Positions 5,197-54,698 of a stretch of 64,000 nucleotides of DNA are shown in pieces. Both the position numbers and the translations under genes were made by a program. The notes below the pieces were generated by a model. That model saw only the letters and a list, made by a program, of their open reading frames with translations. It searched no databases and was not told the origin of the DNA. The DNA is from Halolamina sediminis. GTDB taxonomy: Archaea; Halobacteriota; Halobacteria; Halobacteriales; Haloferacaceae. The first letter of the stretch is position 1; every line of letters begins with the position of its first letter. Location of the stretch: NCBI RefSeq assembly GCF_001282785.1, contig NZ_CVUA01000001.1:2108001-2172000 (forward strand), in the 5' to 3' direction.

Positions 5197-5857
5197 GGGT
5201 GTACCTGTATGAGAGTCAGGAAAAGCCCGTCGTCGGCGTGGTTGGACGGTACGGTAGCCTGATTGTTGGGTGCTGAGACAGCAACCACACGGCAGCAGCA
5301 ACTCGAGGCTAGACCACTTGTAACCGCCCCGCCCCGCACAGCCCACAGACCTCCCCAGCCGACTCCTTCCCTCGCTTCGCTCGGTCACTCGTCCTCCGAG
5401 GGAGCGGAGCTCCCTCGTGCCCTCGTTCGGTTCACTCACGAGGACCTCGCGCGCTCGTTCGCGCACGGAGGCGTCGTGCGGGCGATCCACGCGTCGCCCG
5501 CACTGCCAGCGAGACCGCCGGTCTCGCCCTGCTCACGTCGCGCGCCGACAGCCACAGCGGTAGCGGTGGACGCCTCGCGCTCGCCAGCGGTCGGCGAGCG
5601 CGGGGGGAGGGGTGGGGACTCGGTGCTGCGCCGAACCTCGTGTTCGGCGCACTGCGGTCGCAAGTGGTCGACGATCGAGTTGCTGTTGCGGTTGCTGTCT
5701 CAGTCGCCAACAATCGAGTTGCTGTCTCAGTTCCCAATGAACGAGGAGCTACCCACACGAACGAGTGCGATTCACGAAACCCAGCCGAGACCTCGGCAGA
5801 CGACACGGCGCCGCCGCTACCCGGACAGAACTGAACGCAGAAAGGATCTCGACGGGC
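5197..5857. other. 661-base gene-free interval holding repeat element A
   Basis: No convincing gene. Open frames across this stretch on both strands are shadow frames with unnatural Arg/Ser/Pro-rich composition, and one extends the cupin frame upstream without need. Most of the interval is the inverted-repeat element at 5273-5730. The remainder, 5197-5272 and 5731-5857, is the cupin upstream region and the region just 3' of rps2. Confidence 0.7.
5273..5730. mobile_element. Non-coding inverted-repeat element, copy A (MITE-like)
   Basis: The left end begins ctgagacagcaac and continues to gcagcagcaactcga and gaccacttg; the right end read on the other strand begins ctgagacagcaac (twice, ending at 5730 and at 5703) and continues gcaacagcaactcga and gaccacttg. 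That gives an imperfect terminal inverted repeat of roughly 45 bases. The interior holds hairpins, including a 9-bp stem with a 3-base loop at 5397-5417 and a 9-bp stem at 5577-5601. A core (about 5440-5560) with tcacgaggacctcgcgcgct and gctcacgtcgcgcgccgac is shared with copy B at 17.4-18.0 kb. No transposase is encoded. Whether it moves is unknown. Confidence 0.7.
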
Positions 5858-17412: not shown

Positions 17413-18011
17413 GCGTTTTCGTGTTTCTGGGTTGGGTTCGGTAACGCCGGAGCAGTGTACAGCGACAGCAACTCGATCGTTGACCACTTGTGACTGCACC
17501 GCCCCGCACAGCCCTCACTGCTCGCGGGTCGCTCCGCTCGTGGGAACTTCGGCGAGTTTTCCCGCCTCGCTCCCTCCCCGGCCGACTCACTCGCTCACGT
17601 CCGTTCGCTCGTTCGTCCGCCGAGAGAGCGAAGCGCTCTCTCGTCTCCTCGTTCGCTTCGGTCACGAGGACCGCGCGTGCTCGTTCGCACACGGGGCGTC
17701 GTGCGGGCGACCCGCGCATCGCCGGTACTGCCAGCGGGATCCCGGTCCCGCCCTGCTCACGTCGCGCGCCGACCGCCACAGCGGTGCGGTCGCGGTAGAC
17801 ACCGCGGGCCGGCAGTTGTCGCCGTCACCAGAACGCGAAGCGTTCTGGTTGGCTAACGGGAGCCGCAGGCTCTCGTCTGCCAATCAGAAATCTTCGATTT
17901 CTGATGACGGACCCTGTGTCCGGCGCCCTGCGGTCGCAGGCGGTCTAGCATCGAGATGCTGTCACAGTCGCTGTTACCGACAAACGGAGAGAAACCGGTA
18001 AGAGAAACGAA
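17413..18011. other. 599-base gene-free interval between convergent genes
   Basis: Nothing here looks like a gene; frames running through it are shadows of repeat DNA. Almost all of it is repeat element B (17439-17980). It separates the plus-strand 92-residue gene from the convergent flavin oxidoreductase gene. Confidence 0.75.
17439..17980. mobile_element. Non-coding inverted-repeat element, copy B (MITE-like)
   Basis: The left end reads gacagcaactcgatcgttga then ccacttgtgactgc; the right end on the opposite strand reads cggtaacagcgactgtgaca then gcatctcgatgctagacc. Both ends carry cggtaac near the border. The ends match those of copy A, and the central block around 17662-17782, with tcacgaggaccgcgcgtgct and gctcacgtcgcgcgccgacc, matches copy A closely. 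Unlike A it contains a run of three small hairpins at 17831-17902: agaacgc-gaa-gcgttct, gagcc-gca-ggctc and atcagaaatc-ttc-gatttctgat, all with three-base loops. No transposase. Confidence 0.7.
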
Positions 18012-35882: not shown

Positions 35883-36479
35883 GGGTCGATCGGCGGACGT
35901 TTTGTCGCTCGGAACGATCGAGAAACGGCTGGTGTGTAGTTCGTGCGAACTGATGAGAGAACGTTCTCGGGGCATTCCGAACGAGGCGGTGAGGGGGACC
36001 ACAACATCTGAAGTGGTGGACCGACGACAGACGTTGTTTCGGACACCTCACCACGTGTGAGTTCCGCAGTCAGTTCAACGATCGCGACCGCCGCCTGGAC
36101 TGCCTCCCGATCGAGAACCCACTACGACCCCTCCCAAGGTCGTTAAGGGGCATCCCTTCCCCCATGTATGGGTAGGGACCGATACACAATAATCTCCGTC
36201 TATTTTGAAGATTAAAATGTTTTTGACGATACAGAGCTTCGCTTGACGTCGCGCCAGTCCTCGCTAAACGAGTAGGAAGTAGAGGACTGTCGCCACTCCC
36301 GTCAACAACTGTCGATTTCTGACCATTTTCATCAAACACTTGATCGTTGACTGCCAGTTCCCCAGTACCGGCTTCGTCTCCCACACTTCACGTTCAGTTG
36401 TTTCTCAAAACGTCGCATCCGCGAGCGAAGCGAGCGGTTCGCCGGACCGGCCGAAGGGAGGTCCGGCATTTTGGCATCA

Positions 36480-36533
36480 CCAGAATCGCGATGCGATTCT
36501 GGGTAGCAGTCAGAACGCAAAACGTTCTGACGA
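36480..36533. repeat. Paired hairpins of the dispersed palindromic family
   Basis: Stem cagaatcgc with loop gat and stem gcgattctg, a short linker ggtagcagt, then cagaacg with a five-base loop and cgttctg, followed by acgac. The order hairpin-linker-hairpin-gatgac/acgac resembles the arrangements at 17.83-17.91 and 54.52-54.56 kb. Confidence 0.7.
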
Positions 36534-54305: not shown

Positions 54306-54698
54306 ATGTCACGAGAATCAGTCGTACGGCGGTACTACGCGCTGGTCGACGCCGGGGAGTACGACGCGCTGGTCGAACTGTTCACCGAGGACGTCGTCTA
54401 CGAGCGCCCGGGACAGGCGACCATCGAGGGACGGGAAGCACTTCGGGAGTTCTACGAGACGGGCCGGCCGCTCTCGAACGGCGAGCACGAACTCCACGCC
54501 GTCGTCGCCGACAGCGTGGAGCAACGCTCCGCTGGCAATCGGACGCAGTCCGATGACGGGGACACCGTCGCGGTCCGCGGGACGTTTCGCGGGGAGCAGG
54601 ACGGCGACGCCGTCGAACTCGGGTTCGCCGACTTCCACGAGTTCGACGGGGAGTCGATCGCGCGCCGGTACACGTACACCGACCGGGACACCGTCTGA
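54306..54698 (+). CDS. SnoaL-like (NTF2-fold) protein with a palindromic insert
   Basis: 130 residues. The fold is recognisable from VVRRYYALVDAGEYDALVEL, FTEDVVYERPGQATIEGREA, LREFYETG and the C-terminal FADFHEFDGESIARRYTYTD. Between the third and fourth strands the coding DNA contains two adjacent hairpins, giving extra residues VEQRSAGNRTQSDD before GDTVAVRGTFRG. Family members of this size lack the insert, so it appears to be an in-frame insertion in a turn. Confidence 0.88.
   Translation: MSRESVVRRYYALVDAGEYDALVELFTEDVVYERPGQATIEGREALREFYETGRPLSNGEHELHAVVADSVEQRSAGNRTQSDDGDTVAVRGTFRGEQDGDAVELGFADFHEFDGESIARRYTYTDRDTV
54518..54554. repeat. Paired hairpins inside the SnoaL-like gene
   Basis: ggagc-aac-gctcc at 54518-54530, linker gctggca, then atcggac-gca-gtccgat at 54538-54554, followed by gatgacgg-type sequence. 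Same order as hairpin-ctgccaatc-hairpin-gatgacgg in element B near 17.87-17.91 kb. Both loops are three bases. Confidence 0.85.

Follow-up and report, generated by a model that had tools for sequence, protein, structure and literature searches.

The SnoaL-like gene at positions 54306–54698 of the window (the whole 64,000-nt stretch of Halolamina sediminis DNA analysed here) carries a 45-bp in-frame insert. With a probability of roughly 0.8, this insert is one copy of a palindromic mobile DNA element that is non-autonomous and specific to haloarchaea. The element comprises two hairpins and an NGSCA joint, ends in GACG and exists as both empty and filled alleles within a single genus, from which we infer that it moves.

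A 45-bp insert in a SnoaL-like gene

The source genome (G000) consists of one contig of 2.84 Mb. The locus is organized as follows:

54306..54698, +: host gene, SnoaL-like/NTF2-fold protein of 130 aa (Pfam SnoaL_2, E=6.8e-19)
54510..54554, +: in-frame insert of 45 bp, residues 69-83, DSVEQRSAGNRTQSD (orthologue gap comparison)
54510..54515, +: left flank GACAGC, forming a degenerate direct repeat with the right flank (empty sites; flank correlation)
54516..54532, +: hairpin 1, GTGGAGC-AAC-GCTCCGC, 7 bp including one G.T pair (model alignment; DNA fold)
54533..54537, +: conserved linker TGGCA, NG[G/C]CA across the family (copy alignment)
54538..54554, +: hairpin 2, ATCGGAC-GCA-GTCCGAT, 7 bp with a 3-nt loop (model alignment; DNA fold)
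54555..54560, +: right flank GACGGG, GACG conserved (empty-site alignment; family copies)

The last five features run without interruption from 54510 to 54560, and the two hairpins together (54516–54554) gave a DNA fold z of −2.87. The insert adds 15 residues and leaves the reading frame unbroken. Among close relatives it was found in G000 and the congener G005 (87% identical) alone, with a clean 15-codon gap in congeners G002, G003, G004 and G006 as well as in other genera; empty sites show GACGGC where the filled gene has its left flank GACAGC.

A preliminary description of this DNA had rightly recognized the hairpins and an in-frame insertion, but gave hairpin 1 a 5-bp stem instead of 7 bp, and set the insertion at 54518–54562, while 54510–54554 is the best placement; its estimate of about 14 added residues becomes 15 by the orthologue gap. 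The orthologue comparison it had proposed returned same-genus and other-genus orthologues without exactly these residues. Its placement of the site between two NTF2-fold strands also agrees with the nearest solved homologue, the haloarchaeal protein 4kvh (Hmuk_0747; aligned via orthologues), which itself has no insert and in which the corresponding position is a turn joining two strands. A single-sequence AlphaFold model drew residues 68–87 as a loop, at a pLDDT (47) too low for use, and a search for solved structures containing the insert peptide found none. The 15 residues probably lengthen the turn between the two beta strands with a near-neutral effect on function.

Copies in the genome, the genus and other haloarchaea

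Seven intergenic copies, and none of the SnoaL ones, went into a covariance model (R1), which recovered the SnoaL copy at 38.8 bits (E=1.8e-8, filters off), and the pattern CTGNCAATC...GATGACGG matched 8 places in G000 vs. 0 for its reversed control. At E≤0.01, R1 matched 68 times in G000, 113 times in G003 and 75 times in G005 (range per congener, 4 to 113), counts that include some palindromic sites twice, once per strand. Around 50 separate copies were read out in G000, mostly intergenic. Stems are longer in intergenic copies (often 9+10 bp), which form arrays and inverted pairs and, in many cases, are embedded in a larger GC-rich repeat. This composite repeat surrounds the copies at G000 188386, 280474, 705419, 1507751 and 2418405 (L087–L090, L057) in both orientations, its conserved text including gcggtggcggtggacgcc...gcggccgtc and gcggggggaggggtggggactcgg. 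Within the window, R1 also matched these intergenic stretches:

17855..17910, +: double hairpin of the same family with longer stems (63.3 bits, E=6e-15)
17822..17877, −: inverted partner, with the central hairpin in common (38.4 bits; DNA fold z=−8.5)
36474..36531, −: weaker relative with a TAGCA linker variant (18 bits, E=0.006)

Taken together, the first two read CCGTC[hairpin]TGGC..[hairpin]..GCCA[hairpin]GACGG, and the former is the matching intergenic copy that the preliminary description had located near 17870–17910. That description had also argued that the copies, some coding and some not, form a dispersed family and are not chance palindromes. Both views stand, given the E-value of the SnoaL copy under R1 and a strict pattern that matched 54 times across 392 haloarchaeal genomes vs. 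0 times in a reversed-pattern control; the second in-frame coding copy it had reported in the 64-kb window was not confirmed. The next-best matches of model R2 there were weak (E of at least 0.0019), and double hairpins occur at 36474 and at 5470 without a convincing gene around either. Copies resembling 36474..36531 are found at G000 975357, 2414297 and 2678859; this TTAGCA/TAGCA-linker subclass is intergenic, positioned between aaaagct-like and GACAAAAG-like sequence.

Long ORFs of G000 harbor at least 15 in-frame copies, in unrelated genes belonging to unrelated Pfam families, i.e. SnoaL, UvrC, MFS, YfcE-like, DapF, DapA, S9 peptidase, glyoxalase-like, aconitase family (LeuC), leucyl-tRNA synthetase (LeuRS), PMT_2, PCC, GNAT and two histidine kinases. 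For 11 of these genes, both histidine kinases being excluded, empty sites could be aligned in congeners, the missing stretch being 45, 51 or 57 bp long, in each case a multiple of three. Lengths suggest empty sites for PMT_2 and GNAT as well, where the alignment covers the filled G005 copy alone. Sharing among congeners is in conflict between genes (UvrC with G002, DapA and LeuC with G003, SnoaL with G005), which suggests recombination, loss through direct repeats, or repeated insertion.

At the UvrC site (L154, L167, L189, L191), empty congeners encode D-G-V or D-N-V and filled ones DGV on the left and DNV on the right; the DNV form at empty sites could be a scar of loss through direct repeats. 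In histidine kinases of several genera (L249, L258, L269, L276, L286; G000 1299042 and 1457208), the position of the element coincides precisely with the N-box (RN[A/S]VEHG), and some of these genes carry it in tandem. There, the apparent duplication reaches up to 18 bp because the native VEHG codons resemble the left arm and loop of the element.

Beyond the genus, a short-type model of 51 positions, applied at E≤1e-4, had matches in 168 of 197 haloarchaeal genomes; as the best 30 candidates were scored per genome, copy numbers per genome are lower bounds. Among 84,980 species (GTDB), the strict pattern yielded 42 stretches, 41 of them in named haloarchaea and one in a metagenome-assembled genome titled 'Euryarchaeota archaeon' (unclassified); named records outside the haloarchaea contained none. 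Viral contigs, considered as a vehicle, gave 0 pattern matches. One site in Halorubrum acetyl-CoA synthetase is common to several species and another, in a HerA-like protein, to Natrinema and Halovivax, pointing to some insertions being old and others recent.

Stem pairing, reading frame and flanks

Stem pairs covary strongly. Across 46 distinct copies, pairing was preserved in 98.8% of cells, compared to 84.3% after shuffling and 25–41% with slid partners. Changes on both sides of a pair (compensatory) were seen in nine of 14 stem pairs (102 cells vs. 35), the outer pairs constituting the fair evidence, as the copies were gathered partly by a structure model or by a pattern fixing the inner stem bases. 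It is these outer pairs that vary most, yet remain paired.

In most copies, five of the six frames are free of stop codons, yet one alone is used: all 42 strict-pattern stretches lay in frame 0, on the same strand, of long ORFs, and so did the top short-type model loci in terms of frame (30 of 30, likewise in long ORFs). Frame 0 alone combines acidity (−2.0) with strong hydrophilicity (GRAVY −1.55). Such a peptide suits haloarchaeal proteins, and selection for this sole acidic, hydrophilic frame would account for the bias.

The bases flanking the element are usually GAC on either side. Left and right hexamers matched at 4.41 of 6 positions vs. 4.05 of 6 in shuffled pairs, with positions 5 and 6 significant, and an inverted relation between the flank hexamers was absent. 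This similarity above the shuffled level, together with GAC on both sides, points to a target duplication of probably 3 to 6 bp; left and right flanks are often unlike and a fixed length is unproven.

Mode of propagation and related elements

The element inserts beside GAC (often GACGTC or GACRRC) with a direct repeat of 3–6 bp, and adds 45 bp in its short form or, in longer ones, 51 or 57 bp. Insertions out of frame or in other frames would be lost, and selection would tolerate the one frame encoding a surface-loop peptide that is acidic and very hydrophilic (about AERSSAGSRTQSDD). Because stems of different copies differ in sequence yet stay paired, propagation may proceed via a single-stranded, hairpin-folded form, recognized by an enzyme supplied in trans. 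More tentatively, and at somewhat less than even odds, the family could be minimal mobile DNA, present throughout the haloarchaea and conserved mainly in its shape of two hairpins with unpaired feet, the stems being rewritten between copies but kept paired; it would be moved by an enzyme reading single-stranded hairpins and would supply ready-made acidic loops to haloarchaeal proteins, housekeeping enzymes included.

An alternative is a REP/REPIN- or IS200-IS605-type (PATE-like) element, whose hairpins a Y1 HUH tyrosine transposase moves by single-strand insertion at a short target. In its favor, the feet of the hairpins are conserved and unpaired, and the units form pairs, inverted arrangements and arrays. 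Haloquadratum has PATEs that derive from IS605-type elements (PMC3119063), and in genome G038 an R1-like double hairpin (20.7 bits; L126 2000–2052) lies upstream of the start of an IS200-like transposase gene. However, G001 and G002 carry copies without any Y1 gene, and the Y1 genes of G000 are all broken. Among the 29 Y1 loci searched, which contained almost no copies, a convincing link to a Y1 (IS200-type) transposase was absent outside G038, the one further convincing match lying ~1.2 kb away in that same genome, and inspection by eye of the ORFs beside two arrays revealed no obvious transposase. The insert is, moreover, flanked by direct repeats, which IS605-type elements do not make on insertion. 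We consider this origin unlikely, if worth keeping in view.

Quite improbable, in our estimation, is that the hairpins are kept by selection for a role in host-gene mRNA or DNA (regulation, pausing or a chromosome-binding site). Such a role would fit the low divergence of the insert between G000 and G005 (2 of 45 sites vs. 56 of 345 in the remainder of the gene) and the hairpin arms left unchanged in six of seven Halorubrum acetyl-CoA synthetase copies, but 9% of the 45-bp stretches of the SnoaL-like gene are equally conserved between the two genomes, presence is patchy inside one genus, positions within genes vary and Rfam returned no match to the element (the sole match was a tRNA). The strikingly uniform peptide and its single frame might instead reflect an acidic linker arising repeatedly for a protein-level reason, with the palindromes a by-product of codon use. 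Yet tens of intergenic copies of the same hairpin family already disfavor this, compensatory changes (coding ones included) maintain pairing, and the inserts match as DNA, together with their flanking repeats; we give the idea very little credence.

The best reading is a family of mobile palindromes that code for protein in haloarchaea, analogous to the Rickettsia palindromic elements (RPEs) and the coding palindromes of Methanocaldococcus. Because the family is spread through the haloarchaea and tractable genera hold both empty and filled alleles, several open questions become testable: the agent that moves elements this short, the way in which coding genes put up with them, and their possible contribution to protein evolution. 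For annotation, the lesson is that 15-residue 'insertions' recurring among haloarchaeal proteins are probably mobile DNA.

Protein-coding palindromes are known in Rickettsia, Wolbachia and M. jannaschii (PMC10969869, PMC2996958). RPEs (Ogata et al. 2000, as described in PMC10969869 and PMC3733652) are bacterial and ~150 bp long. Like these, the haloarchaeal repeats are palindromic, lie in frame in unrelated functional protein genes while being absent from orthologues, have non-coding copies and conserve their palindrome structure between copies; in contrast to RPEs, the inserts measure 45–57 bp and comprise two short hairpins with an NGSCA linker. The strict matches across the 84,980 species included no bacterial record, and so none in Rickettsia. 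The M. jannaschii repeats (Suyama, Lathe, Bork 2005; cited in PMC2996958), from one methanogen species, are by description likewise archaeal, palindromic and of coding potential. Small mobile repeats (SMRs) of Haloquadratum walsbyi span ~80–110 bp with long inverted repeats; these and the PATEs are, similar to the present family, small mobile haloarchaeal repeats with palindromes and no transposase, and the consulted text of PMC3119063 mentions no in-frame coding insertions for them. Our literature search, mostly without subscription journals, retrieved no description of the haloarchaeal family, and a peptide search found nothing relevant.

GTAG REPs and REPINs are characterized by a GTAG foot and a linked RAYT transposase, whereas the haloarchaeal family has no GTAG foot and no Y1 linkage in the genus. 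CGTC-tagged REPs, reported in bacterial phyla only, have an unpaired CGTC tag at one end of each hairpin, 8–9 bp stems starting with AT, 4–5 nt loops and a CCA tail (Di Nocera et al. 2013, PMC3733652). Short hairpins, pairs in opposite orientation, some intragenic copies and no known transposase are common to both. A CGTC/GACG foot may be a further resemblance: in the haloarchaeal family, GACG follows hairpin 2 almost always, while CGTC ahead of hairpin 1 is confined to a single subclass. Haloarchaeal stems, in contrast, are 7 bp, start with GN or RY and enclose 3-nt loops.
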